Shown piece after piece: positions 859-20,316 of a DNA stretch of 20,316 bases. Within the stretch, counting starts at the first letter, position 1. Every line of letters starts with the position of its first letter. The notes beneath the pieces were generated by a model that was given only the letters and a program-made list of their open reading frames with translations, searched no databases and had not been told where the DNA came from. The position numbers were made by a program, and so were the translations under genes. The stretch is from a virus. Location: IMG/VR virus record IMGVR_UViG_3300032229_001122, positions 1-20,316 of that record, one strand, 5' to 3'.

Positions 859-1515
859 TTACATTGACATGGCATGAGCTGACTGATCGTCAGCATACGC
901 GCCATAAGGGACCATCCCAGGAGTCTGAATTCCAATTCCATTCATGCCGCTCGAATAAGCACGGTAGGGGTTGAGTCCGGGATAAGCAATCCCGATGCCC
1001 TTCACGCCCTGCGCCGCTGGAGCAGTCTCGGCCGGTCGAGGCAGGAAGACGCTCTGAGCCGTCGGAAGGATGAACGAGTTGATTACCTTCCCGCCCGCAA
1101 CGGCCATGCCGCCCAGGGTGATATCCTGCGAGAATCGCGAGAGCGGGCCGATCTTGTTAGCCAGCATTCCGAGCAGGTAGGCAACGCCCGCGGTTCGAGC
1201 AGCATCCGCCAGAGCGCCAGGACCGCCGATTGACGGGACCATGGTTGTGACGAACTGGGTCAGAGCGCCGCCACCCGCGAGGGTGAGACCCTTCGTCAGC
1301 AGGCCAAAGCCGCCGCCAGGGTTGCGACGCCGCGCGCGCCGATGCATGACGCTGCGACGCCGTTTCGGAGCCGTCGAAGCTGAATATGGGTTATGTCGCC
1401 GGGTCCGCTTGACCCGGCTGGATGACTTGCGCTTACGCATTGATTTTCCTCCAGTAGGATTGACGATCAGCAGGGAAGCCGGTCCCGGATTGATCAGTTT
1501 GACTGTTTTGGCCAT
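859..1515 (-). CDS. Basic NP-motif protein with hydrophobic glycine-rich core, likely virion protein
   Basis: 218 aa. The start at 1515 is chosen because GGAGGG lies 6 bases upstream; a longer frame from 1551 lacks a site. Residues 26-65 are extremely basic (Arg/Lys/Ser). Asn-Pro occurs at 9, 19, 42, 65 and 182, several directly after arginines (RRHNP, RRRNP). Residues 67-150 are Gly/Ala-rich and hydrophobic, with two or three possible membrane segments (about 71-93, 100-120, 132-151). The C-terminus carries two tandem copies of a 20-aa repeat, GIGI..PG..PY.AY, at about 173-192 and 193-212. It lies immediately upstream of the capsid gene in the same operon. A nucleic-acid-binding or membrane-associated minor virion protein fits, but no function is known. 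Confidence 0.85.
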   Translation of the reverse strand: MAKTVKLINPGPASLLIVNPTGGKSMRKRKSSSRVKRTRRHNPYSASTAPKRRRSVMHRRARRRNPGGGFGLLTKGLTLAGGGALTQFVTTMVPSIGGPGALADAARTAGVAYLLGMLANKIGPLSRFSQDITLGGMAVAGGKVINSFILPTAQSVFLPRPAETAPAAQGVKGIGIAYPGLNPYRAYSSGMNGIGIQTPGMVPYGAYADDQSAHAMSM

Positions 1516-1547
1516 TATCGACCCTCCATCATTCCCGCGCGGGAATG

Positions 1548-2639
1548 TCAATTGTGAATGCCGTCCGCTTCGATGTGGTATGCTCCGCCGTCGATGTGCA
1601 TTAAGCCCTCTTCATCAATGCGAAGCGTTGGACGCTCTCCGGTCTCCTCTCCCAGCTCGTGAAAGTAAATTGCCGGGGTAGGTTGTCCCAGGTGCGGTTT
1701 ATCCGTCTCATATTCGACGCGAACGATCTCGCCACACTCTTCGCCCGCGGGGTTTGCCCTGTAGCGCCCGCCGACCACGTGAAGCCGTTGCTTGTGATCT
1801 GCTGCCAGAATCGGAGCAGCCGCGCCATTGAATTTCCATTTGCGCCCGTCGGCTGTCTCGATCAGACGAAGCGCGCCAAGTTTGGCGACATTTGCCGGAG
1901 TGCCAGTCGGAGCGCTCACCGAGTTTTGGCGCTTTGCACGTTTGCCGCTGAAGCGCTCAAATAGCTCTGTGGTTTTGCTTTTCGCTTTGCCAGGATTGCG
2001 CCGCGCACGTCCCACAATGCGAAGTGCACGGCCAGTAAAAGCATCTTGCAGCCGATGCCATTCACTTATCTCACGTGGAGACGCTTCGCCCGCCTCCACC
2101 AAATCACGGAGGAGGAGCGCGCGCGGGGAATCGATCGACCGCGCCGCACTAGTTAAACTGGCGGAACCCACGTAACGCCGGGTTCCGCGTCGGGGATTTT
2201 GACGATTCTTGGCCGCGCGACCTTGTGTGTACTTGGGGTTGATATATCTGCTATTACTCGGAACGTCCACCAACCATTCATCTGCATGTGTGTTCACGCC
2301 AGGCGGCTGTATGTTGGATGAAGAGCGCCATTGCTCGTCAGCTAAAATTAACTGCTTAACATCCCTTATTGCATAGTCTAAGGTAATCGCAACTTCTTCC
2401 GAAAGCTGATCCTTAGTGAGTTTATAACTATCAGTAGATTTTGGTAGCAAATATCTTAATTCACTAAACAGATTATTTTCCAAGTATCCCGTTGCATAAC
2501 GTTCAGCGTACGCACCATTCCGCTTGTACAGCTCTTTGAGTAGTCGGTAAAGCTCATTTGCTTTAGTTGGTTGAAGTTTTAGCAACTTTAGAAACTGTTT
2601 TTTTTCTGTGACGGTCGGATTATGTTTTCGTCGACGCAT
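1548..2639 (-). CDS. Modular NP-linker protein with a conserved phage-type C-terminal domain
   Basis: 363 aa, with AAGGGAAG just upstream of the ATG at 2639. The protein starts MRRRKHNP, and Asn-Pro recurs at 7, 134, 148, 215 and 296, mostly with neighbouring Arg/Lys. Residues 9-105 are helical and charged. Residues 165-210 form a second short helical block. Residues about 224-363 look like one domain ending 'GEETGERPTL....G....GGAYHIEADGI.N'. From memory this ending (G-E-x-x-G-x-R-P ... GG-x-Y ... GI-x-N, with an F-x-G near its start) recurs in uncharacterised phage proteins that also follow RRNP-like sequences; I know no function. The AT-richer 5' half (about 2230-2640) contrasts with the GC-richer 3' half, suggesting mosaic origin. 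It sits among virion genes. Confidence 0.88.
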   Translation of the reverse strand: MRRRKHNPTVTEKKQFLKLLKLQPTKANELYRLLKELYKRNGAYAERYATGYLENNLFSELRYLLPKSTDSYKLTKDQLSEEVAITLDYAIRDVKQLILADEQWRSSSNIQPPGVNTHADEWLVDVPSNSRYINPKYTQGRAAKNRQNPRRGTRRYVGSASLTSAARSIDSPRALLLRDLVEAGEASPREISEWHRLQDAFTGRALRIVGRARRNPGKAKSKTTELFERFSGKRAKRQNSVSAPTGTPANVAKLGALRLIETADGRKWKFNGAAAPILAADHKQRLHVVGGRYRANPAGEECGEIVRVEYETDKPHLGQPTPAIYFHELGEETGERPTLRIDEEGLMHIDGGAYHIEADGIHN

Positions 2640-2657
2640 GGATCTTCCCTTGTTAAC

Positions 2658-2774
2658 CTAAACTTCAAAAGTGATGTAATGCCCTGTTTTAGTGTAAACC
2701 GTAGGGTTGCCATACTCGTCCAGGTCTGAGCCGTAATAGGCTGGCATGCTATGCAAGCCGGGGCCGTATTTCAT
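2658..2774 (-). CDS. Small 38-aa protein between two NP-linker genes
   Basis: An uninterrupted frame from ATG at 2774 to TAG at 2658 fills the gap between its neighbours, starting 5 bases after the upstream stop and ending 18 bases before the next start. The product begins MKYGPGLHSMPAYYG and ends in YITFEV. It is rich in Tyr and Gly and contains a 'YGNPTVY' stretch, so it shares the Asn-Pro motif of its neighbours. No clear ribosome site lies before the ATG; translation could be coupled to the upstream gene. Tight packing on both sides and the non-random composition support it. It could otherwise be a decayed fragment of a neighbouring module. Confidence 0.6.
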   Translation of the reverse strand: MKYGPGLHSMPAYYGSDLDEYGNPTVYTKTGHYITFEV

Positions 2775-2779
2775 CGCAA

Positions 2780-3985
2780 CTAAAGTGTGTAGATTATGGC
2801 TGTCTCAACTTCCCCCCCTACTGGGCCGGTTACACTGTTTTTATACGAAAAAAACGGATGCCCGTCATACTCAATCACCGCCCCCGCGGGAAGCTTGGCA
2901 ACATACGCCCGAACCGCTGTCTCCTCTTCGTCACTCAGCCCCGAATAGTCCCCGTACTCAATAGCAGGGATTGCCCAGGTCGGAATCAATGCTTCGTCCC
3001 ACTCAGGGTTGTTGCGTCGAGCGTTTGATTTTACATACCGCGCTGGGTTTTCTTTATACCATGGCGGGCCGCTTATTGGAGTAGTCGCCGGAGCTTTATC
3101 ACTCTCTGTTATCGTATAACCATCACTGATAATCCGCTCTTCAGCTGCGTCAAAATAGGATTCAGCAACATCAAGCATATTATGGTCAAACCTGCGATAC
3201 ACTCCCCCATAGTACACATAATAATCTGTTTGAGGATCATTCAATTGCACCACGCCCAGCGTTAAAACAATCCTATTTCCATCTTCTAATCGTTCAAATA
3301 CCACCCTGCGCATTTGAAAAACTTCTCTAGGATTATGCACCTTTGCAACGTCTAGATGATCAATTTTTTCCGCGTGTATGTGAGTGCCATTTCTCCGCTT
3401 GCCGTTTGGCGTATACTTCATGGTCCCCAAGCTGGTATACAGCCCGGTATAGCTCTCAAAAATTGACCGCAATTGATCAGCATAGACGCCCTCAATCGCT
3501 TTGAGCGTTGTGAGCTTAAGACCGCGATATTTCGCAAATGTTACTGTGTACAAATCATCAGGAGTCAATTCAATCGTTACAAAATTTGCTCCGGATTTAT
3601 TCTGTGGAATTTTAAATTGTAGCTTGTTTGAGCTGCCAACAAAGCTGCGACTCCCTGTCATCGTCGCAAACCGATTTCCGCCTAGTTGCGCGAAAATAAT
3701 ATCAGCCACCGCCGGATTCGTTTTTCTTTTTCGCGCCGTCTCTAACCGTTCCGCATGATACTGTCTCTGACGTTCAATGCGTTCACGCGCCGCAATATCT
3801 TCTCCGCCTCGCCCCAAATACATATCAGAGCTAACTTTTTCCGCAACATACTTGCCAGCACCATATTGCGCTTTCGCGCGCTTCACTGCTTCGACACTGG
3901 TAAAGCCGGGATAGATGCCAACTTCCACGCCATCGCGTGAAATCAGATAACGAGGATTTGATCGTCGAGCCATTTTCCGTTTCAT
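2780..3985 (-). CDS. Multi-domain NP-linker protein (mosaic of mobile-element domains)
   Basis: 401 aa. The start at 3985 has GGAG 9 bases upstream. Asn-Pro occurs at 10, 90, 218, 313 and 326, usually after basic residues, and these sites appear to separate modules. Residues 12-88 are a charged block. Residues 92-187 contain 'AQLGGNRFATMTGSRSF', then N-F-V-x-I-x-L, DLY and TGLY, matching from memory a domain common in phage and plasmid proteins. Residues 220-310 are a beta-rich module with YYVYYGG. Residues 328-401 contain 'AIEYGDYSGLSDEEE' and '..PFFSYKNS', matching another small mobile-element domain I have seen as separate proteins. It is not a known enzyme. Its place between anchored virion proteins and the capsid gene suggests a virion component or packaged cargo. 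Confidence 0.88.
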   Translation of the reverse strand: MKRKMARRSNPRYLISRDGVEVGIYPGFTSVEAVKRAKAQYGAGKYVAEKVSSDMYLGRGGEDIAARERIERQRQYHAERLETARKRKTNPAVADIIFAQLGGNRFATMTGSRSFVGSSNKLQFKIPQNKSGANFVTIELTPDDLYTVTFAKYRGLKLTTLKAIEGVYADQLRSIFESYTGLYTSLGTMKYTPNGKRRNGTHIHAEKIDHLDVAKVHNPREVFQMRRVVFERLEDGNRIVLTLGVVQLNDPQTDYYVYYGGVYRRFDHNMLDVAESYFDAAEERIISDGYTITESDKAPATTPISGPPWYKENPARYVKSNARRNNPEWDEALIPTWAIPAIEYGDYSGLSDEEETAVRAYVAKLPAGAVIEYDGHPFFSYKNSVTGPVGGEVETAIIYTL

Positions 3986-3990
3986 TGATT

Positions 3991-4521
3991 TTATCTCCGC
4001 AAAAGAATCACCAGGCCAACCACGCCGAGCGCCGCCAATAACAAACCGCTGGTGGAGTCGACTCCAACCGCGCCGCCGATGGTCCCGCCAAGTTGATCGA
4101 GCACGTTGACCCCTGTCGAGCTGCGTGGCGCTGGGGTTGTCGTTATGGCCGTTGTCCCGCTGGCCGGGTCATATGTCTCCGCCGTAAATGTCACGCTGGC
4201 ATAATTCAGCTTTGAATAAAGCCCGGAGAGGACCGACAACACCGCATCTTTCAAGTGTTGATCAGACCCATACTCACGCCCGGAGTAGGATTCAACTACA
4301 ATGAACGGATTGACCACGCCCGCGAGTTGATAGACCTTGACCAGACCGCTGACATATCCGGAGCGCGAGAGCGCCGCTTCCATCCGCGTCATAAGATCGG
4401 GCAGCTCCTCAAACGACAAATCTGCGTACCAGTCAGACAATTCAACACCGAGTTGAAAAGGCGCGCCCTGATGGACCGGTCTACCTGTCAGCGCCCCAAG
4501 ACCATTATTTCCGCAACACAT
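3991..4521 (-). CDS. C-terminally membrane-anchored virion protein candidate
   Basis: 176 aa, starting directly after the stop of the preceding gene (TAAATG). An N-terminal CC-containing leader is followed by a mixed alpha/beta domain at about 20-120, a Thr/Ala/Pro-rich linker at 118-140, and a single C-terminal hydrophobic helix at about 157-174 ending ILLRR. The layout (folded domain, flexible linker, one C-terminal membrane helix, final arginines) is shared with the next three genes upstream. This is what I would expect for small proteins tying a protein shell to an internal membrane, as in PM2-type viruses. The sequence itself matches no family I recognise. Confidence 0.85.
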   Translation of the reverse strand: MCCGNNGLGALTGRPVHQGAPFQLGVELSDWYADLSFEELPDLMTRMEAALSRSGYVSGLVKVYQLAGVVNPFIVVESYSGREYGSDQHLKDAVLSVLSGLYSKLNYASVTFTAETYDPASGTTAITTTPAPRSSTGVNVLDQLGGTIGGAVGVDSTSGLLLAALGVVGLVILLRR

Positions 4522-5145
4522 TTACCGCCGCCTTCCCGAGGTCAGCGCGATCAACACCACGCCACCCGCGATTATTGCCCACCATGGGAACGCCGACTCC
4601 TGAACCGTATCGCCTGGCGTGATCTGTGAGACTGGTACACACCGCCCTTGAGTAATACTGAATTGCTGTCCCGCCGGACAAGGCGGAAGCTGACATTTTT
4701 TCGTTTTCGGATCGTACACAAACGGAGCAGGACAAGCACCCGCCGCGGTTGGTTTCGGTCTCGTCACTGGCCGCGCGGGGACCGCTCCTGCCGGTTGTCC
4801 TGGCCGCGTCGGAGCCGTAGGAGACGGAGCCGGGAAAGGCACACAAGCGTAGGGGTCATTGACAGGGTGATATTGGCCGCGAGGACAATAGCCCGGCAGT
4901 GGCGCTGTCGTCGGCTCTGTCGGACCATAGACCGGAAGATAATCCGCGGGATTGACGCTCGGTCCCCCGCCCCAAAATGAGCTACCAGAATCGAACGGAA
5001 ATCGATCCCACCATGCGCCCCAGTCCATCCCCGCGCCATCTCCGCCAGTGTCAGACGGCAAAAAGCCGAGTCCTCGCGCCGGTCGTGTCAGTACGCCAGG
5101 AACCATCACGGGTTGTCGGATTGGTCGTCGAGTGGGCCAGGCCAT
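4522..5145 (-). CDS. Proline- and cysteine-rich tail-anchored protein
   Basis: 207 aa. An Arg/Pro-rich N-terminus is followed by a Trp/Gly/Pro-rich stretch (about 40-75). There are three Cys-pair repeats of form C-P-x-G/P...C-x-P, with 12 to 13 residues between the cysteines, at about 87-101, 138-151 and 155-168; the first two are separated by a long Pro/Ala linker. The protein ends in a hydrophobic helix at about 186-203 followed by GRRR. The paired cysteines suggest disulfides, so the soluble part should face an oxidising compartment or the virion exterior. It belongs to the set of four consecutive C-terminally anchored proteins and is probably a virion surface or vertex component. Function unknown. 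Confidence 0.85.
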   Translation of the reverse strand: MAWPTRRPIRQPVMVPGVLTRPARGLGFLPSDTGGDGAGMDWGAWWDRFPFDSGSSFWGGGPSVNPADYLPVYGPTEPTTAPLPGYCPRGQYHPVNDPYACVPFPAPSPTAPTRPGQPAGAVPARPVTRPKPTAAGACPAPFVYDPKTKKCQLPPCPAGQQFSITQGRCVPVSQITPGDTVQESAFPWWAIIAGGVVLIALTSGRRR

Positions 5146-5149
5146 GAGA

Positions 5150-5617
5150 TTATCTCCGCATCAACGCAATAGCCGCGATAGCCGCGACTGGTATCCACAC
5201 CGGGACCGCAGTCCCGCCGAGATCAAATGTCGTCGAGAGGATGCCGCCGCCGCTGGCCGCGCTGGTTGCTGGCTGCGTCGAGATAGCAGGATAGACATTG
5301 AAGGTCGTCATGGCCGTGTAGATCTGGCCTTGTTCATCCTTGATCAAGATTTCCTTGATCCATGCTCCCTGCTGGTCCTCTGCCCAAGGCGCGCCCATCT
5401 CAATAGACGCGGTTCCATTGGCTTCCGTTTTATGGCCGTAACTGGCGTTTAGCTCACCGGTCGCTACGCCGTCTTTGTAGCTACTCCAAAATATTTCCGC
5501 GTTTGGTGGAGCGCCGATAATCAAATATCTGCCCTTCTGCCCAACGCGCTGCACCGGTGAATCAATCCGGAGTGTAATAGGTATAGCGCCGCCTAAGCCT
5601 CTCAAACGCCAAGCCAT
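5150..5617 (-). CDS. Ig-like beta-sandwich protein with C-terminal membrane anchor
   Basis: 155 aa. Residues about 14-108 look like an immunoglobulin-like beta-sandwich: 'GRYLIIGAPPNAEIFW', then YGHKT..NGTASIE, then G-A-W-I-K-E-I-L-I. From memory this GAP-N-A / YG-x-T-x-x-NG / GxW-x-E pattern is seen in adhesin-like and virion-decorating Ig domains. A Ser/Thr/Gly linker at 112-130 leads to one hydrophobic helix at about 136-153 ending ALMRR. It probably displays an Ig-like domain from a membrane, either binding the capsid shell or carbohydrate. The order and spacing with its neighbours indicate co-expression. Confidence 0.85.
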   Translation of the reverse strand: MAWRLRGLGGAIPITLRIDSPVQRVGQKGRYLIIGAPPNAEIFWSSYKDGVATGELNASYGHKTEANGTASIEMGAPWAEDQQGAWIKEILIKDEQGQIYTAMTTFNVYPAISTQPATSAASGGGILSTTFDLGGTAVPVWIPVAAIAAIALMRR

Positions 5618-5618
5618 A

Positions 5619-5924
5619 TTAACGACCCTTCTTTCCGATCAGGAACGCACCAACAACGATCCCGATCAAAGCCGCTGTCCACCAATTGATTGTAAATCCG
5701 CCCGCATTGACCGCGCCTGGCGACAGCGCCGGACCGCCTGGAGTGTTCACGATAGTTCCGCCAGGAACACCAACACCCCAACCACCGGAGCGAAATCGAG
5801 GATCATCGGGCGAAATATAAGCGCCCTGACCAACGCGCGCGCCAACGACATCAATTCCGCGATTGATGGTCTGACCCCACCAGGGCATGTCATACGAAGA
5901 AAACAAAGCGTTCGGATCTACCAT
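5619..5924 (-). CDS. Small tail-anchored protein
   Basis: 101 aa. The start at 5924 follows AGGA by 8 bases, and the upstream gene's TGA ends 2 bases before the ATG. The first 75 residues are Gly/Pro/Asp-rich and look extended. Residues about 78-97 form one membrane helix (WWTAALIGIVVGAFLIG) followed by KKGR. This is the first of four consecutive genes with the same C-terminal anchor plus basic tail, and it lies directly after the protease-like gene. A structural role in a membrane-containing virion is inferred. No family is recognised. Confidence 0.83.
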   Translation of the reverse strand: MVDPNALFSSYDMPWWGQTINRGIDVVGARVGQGAYISPDDPRFRSGGWGVGVPGGTIVNTPGGPALSPGAVNAGGFTINWWTAALIGIVVGAFLIGKKGR

Positions 5925-5925
5925 A

Positions 5926-6465
5926 TCAGAATATCCTATACGTCCATTCAGAGTGCGCGGGGTTACGCCAATTCACGCCCGCGAGATGCAAGCCTTGTTG
6001 GCCATCGGCTGTCGGATCGAGGGCCACCCATTCACCATTTACCAGCGCCTCACAATAGACATGATCAAATTCAGAGCCGTTGAACTGCGCCACAAATCGA
6101 GGATGATGGCCAATGGCCGCGAGTAGCGCCGCGAGAAGAGTACATTTGTCGTCACAGTCACCCGATTGCAATTCGAGCGTGGTCATCGGATCTTGAACAC
6201 GTTCGGTCTCGACCGGATCGAGCCGATAAGCGATCTGATCCCGACAATAGGCCAAAAGCGCGGCCAGCTCTGCATGATGGTGATGGCCGAGGATGCCAGA
6301 ACAAATTGAGAGAGCAGCGCGCCGAATGCGCTCATCAAGATAGCCCGCATAATCCGGAGCAATCTCACCGCGTACCGCTGCCGCCATTGTGGCCAGTGTT
6401 CGCCGCGTCCCTTCTGCGCCGTCTGCAAGCCGCTCTCTCTGAATTGAAACTTGCCTGTTAAACAC
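5926..6465 (-). CDS. Transglutaminase-like cysteine protease
   Basis: 179 aa from GTG at 6465, chosen because TAGGG lies 7 bases upstream; a TTG at 6534 (202 aa) is possible, and the frame is open further. Residues about 60-155 match the transglutaminase-like fold: 'LQSGDCDDKCTLLAALLAAIG' at 99-119 with catalytic Cys104, 'FDHVYCEALVNGEW' with His135, and 'VALDPTAD' with Asp150. All three triad residues are present. In phages such proteins are common near structural genes, and in bacteria the fold acts as a peptidase or amidase. Being first in the late operon suggests a processing enzyme for virion precursors or a peptidoglycan-active virion enzyme; neither is shown. It also carries an RNP motif near the C-terminus (167-169). 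Confidence 0.87.
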   Translation of the reverse strand: MFNRQVSIQRERLADGAEGTRRTLATMAAAVRGEIAPDYAGYLDERIRRAALSICSGILGHHHHAELAALLAYCRDQIAYRLDPVETERVQDPMTTLELQSGDCDDKCTLLAALLAAIGHHPRFVAQFNGSEFDHVYCEALVNGEWVALDPTADGQQGLHLAGVNWRNPAHSEWTYRIF

Positions 6466-6620
6466 ACCATTTGCCCTAACAAATGCGAACAATTCCGCAA
6501 GAGCAGACTCAACCCGTAAGACGTATTTTGTCAATGGCGTTTTTTTCGGAAGCGTGGCAACATCAATAGCGCGCGAATGGCGCGAACAATGGCAAAACAA
6601 TGTAATCACATGGTGAAAAA
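6466..6620. promoter_or_regulatory. Divergent intergenic region between the two transcription blocks
   Basis: These roughly 155 bases separate the first minus-strand gene from the first plus-strand gene and should hold both promoters. On the minus strand there is a perfect TTGACA beginning at 6534, but no acceptable -10 box at 16-18 bases. No sigma70-like pair is clear in either direction, so late transcription may need an activator or another sigma factor. A tiny frame ATG-GTG-AAA-AAA-TGA at 6610-6624 overlaps the start of the plus-strand gene. Confidence 0.5.
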
Positions 6621-7913
6621 ATGACACGAAAAAAAACTGTATTACCTGACGCCGAAAGCACTTCCCTGCCCTCTGAACCTGTCGCCGTGCAAACTCACGT
6701 CGTAACAACTCGATACAAAAAAGAAATTCCAGTGAGCGAGGTGGAACAATCGCCGGATGAGGATTCAGGGCTGATCGAGCCTGAAATCTATGTCGAGGAT
6801 TACGAGGGACCAGAGATCGAACCGCCCGCCCGCTTTGCTCCAACCATCGAGCCGCCGCCGAATGCAAATGATTCTATCGCTCAAATGCTGGCCGATCTGC
6901 AAATCGAGAAGCGCGCGCACTCCTGGACGATGGTTGTTGAACGTCTCCCAAATTACGATCGAGATGGGCGCGGGGATGTCGGAGCCAAACGAGTAAACTG
7001 TGGAACGCGCGCAATGTCCGAAGATTTCATCGAGGAGATTCGCCGCGAGTTTGCCAGGCCCAGCAAGCCAAATCATTTCCGAGTGACGATCAAACGAGAC
7101 GGAAAGATTTTCGCTCACTGGCCAGACGTGATCAGTCTCGAACCACCAGCGCCGGAAGAGTTGCCAGCGCTCGATGCGCAATTTGCGCCCGCGCCGCCAG
7201 TCTCCGCGCTTCCCGCTTCCGCTCCTCCGCCAGGGTTGACGGATCTGGTAAAACAGCTCAAACAGCTCAAAGAGATTCAGTCCCTTCTCTCTCCGGAACC
7301 GATTGCCAATCCTGCCGCCGGATCGCTGACCGAAGAGGCGGCGCTGTTGCGCCTATTGTCGTCGAGTGATGAGGTCATCTCGAAGGTAACAGATAGGATT
7401 TCAAAGAAACTCTTTCGTGACGATCATGCTACCGATGGCGCGGAATGGATGCCGCTTGTCAAGTCGTTTGTTGATAACGGACCCGCCATTGTGGCCCAAA
7501 TATTTCAAGGCCTTCAACAATTGCGCTCCGCGCCGGTTGCTGTAGAATCGCCAGGACAAGCGCCAATGGTCGCCAATCCCGCGCCGCTCCCGCCGCCGGT
7601 CTCGCCTCAACAACCTACGCCACCGGTCGAGAATGGCCCCGCGCCAGAGTTGGTGCTACTCGGGAATGTGATCAGATATCTCGAAATCAATGCACCGGTA
7701 GAGGCCGCTGCCACGTTTGTTGATGCATATACAGAGCAAAACCCAGCTTTGAATCCACTGGTTGAATCGTTCCTTGCAATGTCGCCGGACGATTGCCGCG
7801 CATTTATGAAAACCTTCTTCCCGAATGCCGCGCCAATCCTGGACCGTGAGACGGCAAGCGATTGGATCTCACGCTTGCAAAAGATTCTCTCCGTCGAGGA
7901 GGTAGATAAATGA
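6621..7913 (+). CDS. Proline-rich multidomain protein of unknown function
   Basis: 430 aa. The N-terminus (1-95) is acidic and disordered. Residues about 98-175 form a compact domain with 'VVERLPNY' and 'FIEEIRREFA', then V-T-I-K-R-D-G-K-I ... PDV ... LEPP. A Pro/Ala linker follows (178-206). Residues 207-300 are helical, with L-K-Q-L repeats and a hydrophobic stretch, then a second Pro-rich linker (about 313-345). A helical C-terminal domain spans 347-430 ('DDCRAFMKTFFPNAAPIL'). No Walker A, polymerase or nuclease motif is visible. Only a weak GGTG precedes the ATG. It opens the plus-strand block and overlaps the next gene by ATGA, so the two are translationally coupled. Modules joined by Pro-rich linkers suggest a scaffold or adaptor role. 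Function unknown. Confidence 0.88.
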   Translation: MTRKKTVLPDAESTSLPSEPVAVQTHVVTTRYKKEIPVSEVEQSPDEDSGLIEPEIYVEDYEGPEIEPPARFAPTIEPPPNANDSIAQMLADLQIEKRAHSWTMVVERLPNYDRDGRGDVGAKRVNCGTRAMSEDFIEEIRREFARPSKPNHFRVTIKRDGKIFAHWPDVISLEPPAPEELPALDAQFAPAPPVSALPASAPPPGLTDLVKQLKQLKEIQSLLSPEPIANPAAGSLTEEAALLRLLSSSDEVISKVTDRISKKLFRDDHATDGAEWMPLVKSFVDNGPAIVAQIFQGLQQLRSAPVAVESPGQAPMVANPAPLPPPVSPQQPTPPVENGPAPELVLLGNVIRYLEINAPVEAAATFVDAYTEQNPALNPLVESFLAMSPDDCRAFMKTFFPNAAPILDRETASDWISRLQKILSVEEVDK

Positions 7914-10206: not shown

Positions 10207-11064
10207 ATGAATTTACTTCAAGTGTTGGATAGACCAATAGCGTTTCATCGGATCTTTGCCGAATTGACGGGATCTGTTTCTGCCGGATTGATGCTGTCCC
10301 AGGCTGTTTACTGGTCCGGAACAAACAAAGCCGGAGAGCGCCGAACGGCGAATTCTGATGGCTGGTTCTACAAGTCACAACAGGAGTGGTACGAAGAGAC
10401 CATGCTGACCCGGAAAGAGCAGGAAACCGCTCGAAAACATTTGCGGGATCTTGGAAACGCTGATATTTGGGTTGAGGAGATGAAAGGCATGCCGCGCCGT
10501 CTCTTCTATCGGTTGGATCTCGACAAGCTTCAGCTGCTCATTTTGGACATGCAAGCTGCGCAAAAGGGACATGCAAGCATGTCCGAAAGGGACATGCAAG
10601 CTGCGCAAAAGGGACATGCAAGCATGTCCGAAAGGGACATGCAAGCTGCGCAAAAAGGGCATGCTATTAATGAACAGAGATTACACAGAGATTACACAGA
10701 GACTACTACACCTTTTTTCGACAATCGCGCTCCGCGCGAGTCGAAGAAAAAAAGGGGGGGTAAATTCTCTTTTGATTATTCTTTTGAATCCCTCTCCGGA
10801 TTGTTTACGGAACATGAGCATGCGTGGTTGGTTGCCAATTGTCCCAGAATCGAGACCGAAGCCGCAAGCCGTGCTTTTCTGGCATATCACAATGAGAAAC
10901 AGACAGGGTTTCGCTCTGCGCGCGCCGTATTGGCCGCCTGGCGTGGTTGGATGGTCCGGGCAGAGGGTAGGGCAGGGGCCGCGCCCAAAAATTCAATAAC
11001 GGGCCGGTCTGGCTTAAATGCGGCCGACCTGGAGAGCCTTAGACTTGCCGGAATTATCGACTGA
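10207..11064 (+). CDS. Replication initiator, phage O-like winged-helix protein with internal origin
   Basis: 285 aa from ATG 10207 (AAAGGG upstream). Residues about 10-105 resemble the N-terminal winged-helix domain of phage replication initiators: 'SAGLMLSQAVYWSGTNKAG', then DGWFYKSQQEW, then L-T-R-K-E-Q-E-T-A-R-K-H-L-R-D-L-G. Residues 114-153 are a 15-aa tandem repeat (D-M-Q-A-A-Q-K-G-H-A-S-M-S-E-R, 2.7 copies) encoded by 45-bp DNA repeats that look like origin iterons. A basic linker (176-187) leads to a helical C-terminal domain (188-285). In lambda, protein O binds iterons inside its own gene and recruits the host helicase. The same logic is inferred here, but I see no helicase or helicase loader, so host enzymes are probably used. 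Confidence 0.8.
   Translation: MNLLQVLDRPIAFHRIFAELTGSVSAGLMLSQAVYWSGTNKAGERRTANSDGWFYKSQQEWYEETMLTRKEQETARKHLRDLGNADIWVEEMKGMPRRLFYRLDLDKLQLLILDMQAAQKGHASMSERDMQAAQKGHASMSERDMQAAQKGHAINEQRLHRDYTETTTPFFDNRAPRESKKKRGGKFSFDYSFESLSGLFTEHEHAWLVANCPRIETEAASRAFLAYHNEKQTGFRSARAVLAAWRGWMVRAEGRAGAAPKNSITGRSGLNAADLESLRLAGIID
10545..10664 (+). repeat. Iteron array, candidate replication origin
   Basis: A 45-bp unit is repeated at 10545-10589 and 10590-10634, with a partial third copy from 10635. The core GGACATGCAAGC occurs at 10545, 10567, 10590, 10612 and 10635, with a degenerate GGGCATGC near 10658. The spacing is 22 or 23 bases, about two helical turns, so sites lie on one face. Alternate cores extend to GGACATGCAAGCATGTCC, an 8-bp inverted repeat with a two-base centre. 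This is the classic layout of initiator-bound iterons, placed inside the initiator gene. Confidence 0.75.
10678..10711 (+). repeat. AT-rich 11-bp tandem repeats next to the iterons, possible unwinding element
   Basis: AGATTACACAG is repeated exactly at 10678-10688 and 10689-10699, followed by a degenerate AGACTACTACA. The period of about one helical turn, the position 14 bases past the last iteron, and the following purine and AT-rich tract (10739-10795) fit a duplex-unwinding region. It is part of the initiator coding sequence. Confidence 0.5.
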
Positions 11065-11076
11065 CGAAAGGACAAC

Positions 11077-11520
11077 ATGGAATATTCACACCATCAAAAA
11101 ATTTGCATTGCTCAGGCCGTAAGAATCGCGCGCCTTCGCGGGTTTGCCGTCGATGGCAATGACCAGAAATATATAAACATGGGGTTAACCTGGTCCGCCG
11201 AATTGCGTTCAATTCCTGAATCGGAATTGAATAGGTCGATTGATGAAGCATGGCGGTGGTCTGATCATTCGTCCCCGCTTACAACGATTCAGATTGAAGA
11301 CGCCTGGAAGGGGATGCAAAAAACGCGCGCTCCTGAGTCTGTGCAAATAATCGCTCGCATGATGAATTGCGCTCATGATTACCAGTGGTATCCAGAGCCG
11401 GGACCGTTGTTCGAGGGGTTTCACGAGTGTATTCGATGCGGACATGCGCGCCCCGTGTGGACTGCTGACGGCAACACGCCCGGAGCGCGATACCTGGCCG
11501 CGGGAGGGGTCACGATATGA
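11077..11520 (+). CDS. Zinc-ribbon-containing small protein, unknown
   Basis: 147 aa, AAAGGA 6 bases before the ATG and 12 bases after the initiator stop. The N-terminal 95 residues are helical ('QKICIAQAVRIARLRGFAV', 'ELNRSIDEAWRWS'). Residues about 98-125 carry C-x-H ... H-x-C-x-x-C-x-H ('CAHDYQW' then 'FHECIRCGHARP'), which reads as a single zinc ribbon of a type common in small phage proteins. It overlaps the next gene by ATGA. Its location directly after the initiator suggests a replication accessory role, but it does not resemble a DnaC-type loader (no Walker motifs). Confidence 0.8.
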   Translation: MEYSHHQKICIAQAVRIARLRGFAVDGNDQKYINMGLTWSAELRSIPESELNRSIDEAWRWSDHSSPLTTIQIEDAWKGMQKTRAPESVQIIARMMNCAHDYQWYPEPGPLFEGFHECIRCGHARPVWTADGNTPGARYLAAGGVTI

Positions 11521-11813
11521 AGCGCCCGCGCCAGTACAATCCACGACCGCCGAAACCTCAACGTAAATATTCCGATGCAACTTTCGAAGAGCAAGCGGAA
11601 TACCACGCTTATAAGACGCGCTTGAAAAAATTCAATCCACTGTTAGAGGCGCAAGAGTTTCGATTTTGGATAGAGGAGTTTCACGCCGTTCGAGCTGTGG
11701 AGAGCAATGAAGCGCCCTTCGATCCTAGTGACGAGTTTCACGGCGCTCGAAATTATGACCTGTCTACTCTGCCCGATTCACAACCTGTCAGAGACAAAAA
11801 GGAGAAAGCATGA
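11517..11813 (+). CDS. Small charged protein, unknown
   Basis: 98 aa; its ATG overlaps the upstream stop and its own stop overlaps the next ATG, so it is coupled on both sides. The N-terminus is basic and Pro-rich ('MKRPRQYNPRPPKPQRKY', with one Asn-Pro). Residues 20-60 are helical and rich in aromatic and charged residues (E-Y-H-A-Y-K-T-R-L-K-K-F). The C-terminus is acidic, then ends in DKKEKA. No known motif. The basic NP-containing start resembles those in the late-operon proteins, though there is only one. Confidence 0.78.
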   Translation: MKRPRQYNPRPPKPQRKYSDATFEEQAEYHAYKTRLKKFNPLLEAQEFRFWIEEFHAVRAVESNEAPFDPSDEFHGARNYDLSTLPDSQPVRDKKEKA

Positions 11814-12196
11814 GTGATCTGATCAATCGAGCCGAACAAATGCGAGACCTGGCCGCCGTCCGGAAAATGGCGGAGTTGGCCTATTATGCATATCAAGTGC
11901 AAACGCTGGCTTGGAAGGAAAAATATGACCTGCTGGTGACTCCTTCTCGTGTTTTTACGGAAAGAGATCCTGACGTTGATCAAGCAATAATCAAGCGCCA
12001 AGAATCAAGAGATTTAGAATTTCGCGCGCTCGATTTTATTGCGGAACTAAACGACAAATATGATCTCCTCCTTCGTCAGACCATCGAGGAGTTGACAGCC
12101 AATCCTGACGCACTAGGTGAAGTGCTGACTATGCTACAGCTCAAGGCGCTGCCATTGCCGATCGAAGATCTGATTAAAGGTGGAAAGGCCTTCTAG
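11810..12196 (+). CDS. Helical protein, unknown
   Basis: 128 aa with GGAG 5 bases before the ATG. The sequence is almost entirely helical with long amphipathic stretches (about 5-37 and 60-105), likely forming a coiled-coil or helical bundle. There is no membrane segment, Cys or catalytic motif. It is the last gene of a coupled chain (9706-12196, with overlaps or short gaps) before a new promoter at 12215. Function unknown. Confidence 0.8.
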   Translation: MSDLINRAEQMRDLAAVRKMAELAYYAYQVQTLAWKEKYDLLVTPSRVFTERDPDVDQAIIKRQESRDLEFRALDFIAELNDKYDLLLRQTIEELTANPDALGEVLTMLQLKALPLPIEDLIKGGKAF

Positions 12197-20180: not shown

Positions 20181-20316
20181 CTAGCCCGTGACGCCCTTCG
20201 CGCCGAGACCCTCAAGAATCACCTGGATACGGAAATTCCGCGTCGGAGTAAAGGTATTGAGAGCCTGAAGCGTCACATTGAACTGATAGAGAGATTCAAT
20301 GTGTCTGAAGATGGGC
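20181..20316 (-). CDS. Major capsid protein candidate, C-terminal end (same gene as 1-800)
   Basis: On the minus strand this stretch enters from the terminal repeat and ends with TAG at 20183-20181. In the closed circle only 20193-20181 adds new sequence (last residues GVTG-stop) to the frame that starts at 800. The rest duplicates 1-123. It encodes the final beta-strands 'TPTRNFRIQVILEGLGAKG' of the 270-aa capsid candidate. Confidence 0.66.
   Translation of the reverse strand, partial: PIFRHIESLYQFNVTLQALNTFTPTRNFRIQVILEGLGAKGVTG
20194..20316. repeat. Terminal direct repeat, copy 2 (circular overlap)
   Basis: Exact copy of bases 1-123. See the first copy for interpretation. Confidence 0.93.

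Follow-up and report, generated by a model that had tools for sequence, protein, structure and literature searches.

Results

The window, by which we mean the whole stretch of viral DNA analyzed here (20,316 nucleotides), carries an exact 123-bp direct repeat at its two ends (positions 1-123 and 20194-20316) and therefore represents a complete genome, circular and about 20.2 kb in size. A search among the window proteins scanned recognized no terminase, portal, or known capsid. A conserved protein of ~267 amino acids, a capsid candidate, is encoded across the left end; its structure model was unusable (pLDDT 33). The minus strand at 859-6867 encodes a series of proteins that have membrane segments at the C terminus and RRNP-rich stretches, among them a transglutaminase-like protein (PF01841, E 5e-11). 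Through the transglutaminase and capsid-candidate genes we found six sibling viruses (G001 to G006) on contigs of 17.7-22.6 kb, which form one lineage with the window virus and of which the capsid candidates are 76-87% identical to the G001 copy. No relatives were found by a search with a 401-aa ORF.

The gene examined here (Table 1) encodes a protein that matches PHROG_9773, annotated as "replication initiation O-like", over residues 2-164, corresponding to its N-terminal half (E 7.9e-36), whereas the match to PHROG_678 (E 7e-6) marks it as only distantly O-like. Its relatives in IMG/VR were identified by protein search. The AlphaFold model consists of a predicted winged helix, a disordered linker encoded by the repeats, and a weakly predicted C-terminal helical domain. 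Per 10-residue block, pLDDT is mostly 86-97 across residues 11-120 (74 at 41-50), compared to 63 for residues 1-10 and values below 50 for residues 134-190 of the linker. Initiator N-terminal domains are among the best solved folds for the winged helix (4pql, Z 8.3; 4pt7, Z 8.1; 5kbj, Z 7.9), and DnaD and plasmid-type initiators are among the closest, all at a Z level that is also common for unrelated folds; the best Foldseek match of the model is weak (E 0.075). A PDB sequence search with the profile of the initiator family gave no match. An overlapping ORF in another frame (10571-10999) is also open in a sibling but shorter there, and is thus probably incidental and was not retained as a gene. 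No λ P-like loader was recognized among the window proteins scanned; the proteins encoded at 11077-11520, 11517-11813, and 11810-12196 had no matches to family profiles, which may miss a diverged loader.

Table 1. Features of the initiator locus, in window coordinates
Feature	Position	Strand	Description and basis
Replication initiator gene	10207-11064	+	285 aa; PHROG_9773 match, 41 relatives in IMG/VR, AlphaFold model
Predicted winged-helix domain, putative iteron binder	10207-10575	+	aa 1-123; AlphaFold, fold matches, iteron covariation
Iteron array	10545-10664	+	GGACATGC cores starting at 10545, 10567, 10590, 10612, 10635; degenerate GGGCATGC at 10657; period 22/23 (45) bp
Reverse core 1, GCATGTCC	10577-10584	-	part of palindrome 10567-10584 and inverted repeat 10577-10597
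Reverse core 2, GCATGTCC	10622-10629	-	part of palindrome 10612-10629 and inverted repeat 10622-10642
Putative melting element	10674-10706	+	ACAGAGATTAC, ACAGAGATTAC, ACAGAGACTAC; stability minimum, paired motif in initiator genes
Hairpin TTTTTTCGACaaTCGCGCtccGCGCGAGTCGAAGAAAAAAA, then G7; possible third origin part	10713-10753	.	DNA/RNA fold z, G001 third positions
C-terminal helical domain, putative host helicase/primase contact	10783-10974	+	aa 193-256; pLDDT about 54-73

Within this gene lies the strongest tandem repeat array of the window, with no other of comparable score (TRF; period 45 with 97% matches, and period 22). An earlier note made from the DNA sequence had described five clear cores and one degenerate core at a spacing of 22-23 bases, and we reproduced these positions exactly, with successive core-to-core distances of 22, 23, 22, 23, and 22 bp. 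The inverted repeats that it had mentioned are likewise present, and are built by two reverse cores that it did not itemize: these form 18-bp palindromes, GGACATGC-AA-GCATGTCC, and 21-bp inverted repeats centered on an A-tract, GCATGTCC-GAAAG-GGACATGC. The first two 45-bp units are in frame and identical at the DNA level, indicating that the array arose in part by recent duplication. Overall, GGACATGC occurs 8 times in the window compared to 0.87 expected, a count reached in 0 of 100 shuffles. With such an expectation, the eighth exact copy, at 11440-11447 in the next gene and 0.8 kb downstream of the array, is probably a chance occurrence.

The iteron core is translated as DMQ, as GHA and, in reverse orientation, as SMS, so that a peptide repeat cannot explain the 22/23-bp period. 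Compared to 2000 synonymous-codon shuffles of the window gene, both out-of-frame 7-mer pairs (54 versus 3.6) and inverted 7-mer pairs (20 versus 3.0) are in excess (p <= 0.001 for each). Similarly, in 151 related genes the linker preceding the melting element contains 15.8 out-of-frame 7-mer pairs versus 1.0 expected from synonymous shuffles, an approximately 15-fold excess that is confined to the linker: 82% of these genes reach p <= 0.05 there, compared to 4-8% in control stretches before and after it. Dyads, of which the centers are 50% A, are four to five times as frequent in the genes of the relatives as under the null (0.96 versus 0.21 per gene). The earlier note had anticipated conservation of the DNA repeats and not of the encoded amino acids, and had named retention of the 15-aa repeat as protein, with loss of the DNA repeat, as one outcome that would speak against an origin. 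We observed the opposite. None of the siblings or relatives examined keeps the 15-aa repeat, and most of them have an array of ~22-23-bp DNA repeats of other sequences at the same place. These comparisons confirm, at the level of sequence, that the repeats are conserved as DNA and not as protein.

All six siblings possess the initiator gene and an array, with iterons that differ from those of the window in every case: GGCGGAATCCGCC dyads in G001, CCGGTCGGCAGGATTCTGCCAT at 22 and 45 bp in G002 and G003, a 23-bp GGAAAACCAGCAAACAGGCAAGC unit in G004, and GGCGGAAAACGCC in G005 and G006. An AGAGA(Y/A)TAC motif follows each of these arrays. In G001, the nearest sibling, the winged helix is 63% and the C-terminal part 76% identical to the window protein, whereas the linker is unrelated; three copies of AGAGACTAC are kept, and the iteron repeat of the window is absent. 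Among 32 distinct genes, the 6-mer similarity of linkers is associated with identity in the winged helix (partial rho 0.43, p 0.001) but not in the C terminus (0.075, p 0.19); correlations of this kind are inflated by common descent, for which comparing the C terminus controls only in part. Based on these sequences, iteron sequence thus appears to correlate with the predicted winged helix, and not with the C terminus. In one relative (L068), a family match identified an HNH endonuclease domain in frame between the winged helix and the iterons, and insertions of this type were seen by eye at the same position in the initiator linkers of L008, L013, and L015.

Directly downstream of the iterons there are three copies of an 11-bp repeat of the ACAGAGAYTAC type (36% G+C). 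In a scan of duplex stability by 30-bp windows, start positions 10660-10690 fall in the lowest 2-4% of the contig, which places a low-stability region next to the iterons, as a λ-type in-gene origin requires. In 93 genes, duplex stability dips sharply to a minimum at the element. The three AGAGAYTAC copies of the window gene occupy reading frames 1, 0, and 2, and copies in more than one frame are present in 14 genes. In relatives selected by protein search, codon usage in the encoded TETT stretch departs from that elsewhere in the genes, with 96% versus 36% ACA/ACT for Thr and 96% versus 62% GAG for Glu. The earlier note had listed 11-bp AT-rich tandem repeats; the repeats are there, but "AT-rich" is an insufficient description of an element of which the sequence itself is conserved.

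A DNA-only scan for paired AGAGAYTAC returned at least 119 loci, which among the matches listed were almost always inside initiator genes of diverse phages. The listed matches formed 86 clusters, of which 84 representatives were scanned with profiles: a match to PHROG_428 (replication initiation protein) was obtained for 72 of the 84, and one to a DnaD-like loader family for 70. The two clusters left out, L129 and L144, are long repetitive ORFs in which the paired motif looks like chance. Stretches resembling AGAGACTAC also occur in small Acinetobacter plasmids, outside annotated initiator genes (L164:2500-2530 and L165:1255-1290). We found no description of the AGAGAYTAC element in the literature searched, which is weak evidence since most subscription journals were outside the search. 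One of its sequence strings occurs in 111 papers, and the 15 of these that were listed appear unrelated judging from their titles.

In the Bacillus plasmid pBSG3, a segment of ~160 bp aligns to the initiator gene of phage PM1 and contains three copies of TACAGGGAAA at 22-23 bp and two of AGAGATTAC. Its frame is broken by indels and stops and there is no long ORF, and the unit thus persists outside coding sequence. The exact pattern of the pBSG3 iterons was not found in IMG/VR; phage PM1 matches by alignment. Such non-coding copies of a phage-PM1-like origin are located in Bacillus plasmids at L163:735-850 (pBSG3) and L167:1440-1540 (pEA19), and the initiator of an infecting phage may replicate these plasmids.

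Past the melting element, a hairpin (DNA fold z -5.3, RNA fold z -3.5) is flanked by a T-run (10713-10718) and an A7G7 tract (10747-10760). The AT/purine tract of the earlier note is present, but these two runs lie just beyond 10711, where the note had ended the origin. Between 10708 and 10785, 24 of 26 third codon positions are identical to sibling G001, compared to 55 of 92 in the rest of the gene, and the hairpin region is nearly invariant in G001; a T6/A7 hairpin is also present in G002 and G003, though its sequence is different. As a general feature of the family the hairpin was rejected (13% of genes versus 8% in the control), as were a programmed frameshift at A7G7, since the hairpin precedes the tract instead of following it, and an intrinsic terminator, since A's and G's come next and not T's. 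A stretch of 47 bases in the following gene (11464-11510, close to its end) is also identical to G001, a run as long as that in the origin.

Discussion

We propose that this small circular phage has its replication origin within the gene that encodes its initiator, the winged helix binding the iterons, the adjacent element opening, and the C-terminal domain recruiting host helicase or primase, and assign this reading a probability of about 0.87. We infer that replication starts at this in-gene site. By analogy with λ-type O and pSK41 Rep (PMC7466680, PMC5703833), the N-terminal winged helix would bind the array of ~22-bp iterons, in which GGACATGC half-sites face alternately about one helical turn apart, with dyads centered on the A-tract. 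With several protomers bound, the DNA may be wrapped or bent by them and its strands parted at the neighboring low-stability tandem AGAGAYTAC repeats; the C-terminal domain would then recruit the host helicase or primase to the strand exposed in this way. The protein stretch encoded by the repeats is likely to act as a flexible linker under little constraint, which would leave the DNA repeats free to change provided that the winged helix is matched. The GC-skew minimum that the earlier note had expected near 10.6 kb was not observed, the cumulative minimum being near 9-9.5 kb; GC skew is confounded by gene direction and not diagnostic of the origin.

Alternatively, the iterons could mainly constitute a control site, such as an autoregulation operator or a site for copy control or handcuffing, with the strands opening elsewhere. 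Palindromic sites can act as operators, and plasmid iterons commonly serve both as control sites and in origins. However, the array is located ~340 bp inside the gene and not at its promoter, and a conserved low-stability element is found directly 3' of it, which makes this alternative improbable. Less probable still is that the repeats are a feature of the protein, in which selection would act on a binding or spacing role of the 15-aa repeat itself within a disordered linker, with the likeness of the DNA resulting from recent duplication. Although the segment is translated and its 45-bp unit is in frame, with two first copies identical as DNA, the 22/23-bp sub-period means that neither the frame nor the orientation of the core is constant, siblings have a DNA array without the peptide repeat, out-of-frame and inverted pairs exceed those in synonymous shuffles, the copies of the melting element fall in three frames, and pBSG3 contains a non-coding copy. 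Taken together, this explanation is largely refuted. Neutral expansion without any role, in keeping with the tolerance of linkers for expansions and the recent look of the two exact copies, can be dismissed almost entirely because the arrays of relatives share period and place though their repeat sequences are unrelated, the repeats correlate with the winged helix, and palindromes exceed the synonymous null.

An origin within the initiator gene accords with phage λ (NC_001416), where the origin is likewise mid-gene. The λ iterons (~18 bp, spaced by 20-24 bp) consist of inverted arms around AAAA (ATCCCTCAAAACGAGGGA), comparable to the A-tract-centered inverted arms of the window, and are followed 3' by a low-stability stretch and then an inverted repeat, in the same order as here. 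The comparison to the λ ori-in-O layout made in the earlier note thus holds, but not the contrast that it drew from the translation of the repeats: λ iterons are translated as well, and translation is therefore not distinctive of the window origin. The λ low-stability stretch starts with CTATTACAAAAGA, which resembles CTATTACAGAGA of relatives of the window gene. By contrast, the iteron sequence differs, the window has six iterons in which perfect and half palindromes alternate, its melting element consists of a tandemly repeated sequence instead of an A-rich tract, and there is no recognizable P gene among the window proteins scanned. The inverted repeat of λ is at the place matching the window hairpin, which is possibly a third part of the origin and should be taken as a lead.

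In the Stx phages P27 and 933W, six iterons in the O gene adjoin an AT-rich tract, and O binds both the iterons and single-stranded DNA of that tract (PMC7466680). These are close relatives of λ by sequence, whereas the window initiator is only distantly O-like. In pSK41 rep, the winged-helix N terminus binds Rep boxes located centrally within the gene, the central part encoded by the origin is a dispensable linker, and the C-terminal domain contacts DnaG; in pPR9 the N terminus and origin have been swapped naturally with the C terminus kept (PMC5703833). The latter resembles the pattern between the siblings of the window virus. The window initiator differs from RepA_N proteins such as that of pSK41, however, in that none of the Pfam families, RepA_N included, matched at E 0.1, and fold similarity is weak.

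In-gene replication origins have long been known. Judged from the sequences, the less expected part of this origin is that AGAGAYTAC is conserved irrespective of reading frame among phages with differing iterons and C termini. We consider it somewhat better than an even bet that tandem AGAGAYTAC is an undescribed, frame-independent origin element of phages with different iterons and C termini and with both Gram-positive and Gram-negative hosts: a common signal for melting and helicase or primase loading that would be read on single-stranded DNA, could be combined with freely changing pairs of iteron and winged helix, and would be carried in non-coding form by plasmids. In Bacillus subtilis oriC, DnaA-trios and the DnaD recognition element exemplify a short repeated single-stranded DNA signal in the unwinding region that is read by the initiator or a DnaD-like loader (PMC10201434). 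On its lower strand, every AGAGAYTAC reads 5'-TART-3', a TnnT sequence comparable to the B. subtilis signal; TnnT is a very weak motif, and a link between the two signals is only an idea.

In conclusion, a small unclassified circular phage lineage gains a mapped candidate origin. Many genes show how the linker of a replication protein can become a fast-changing address while the putative melting signal beside it stays fixed. Should AGAGAYTAC serve generally as a loading signal, a single DNA pattern could locate origins in many phage genomes, and the identity of its reader becomes directly testable.
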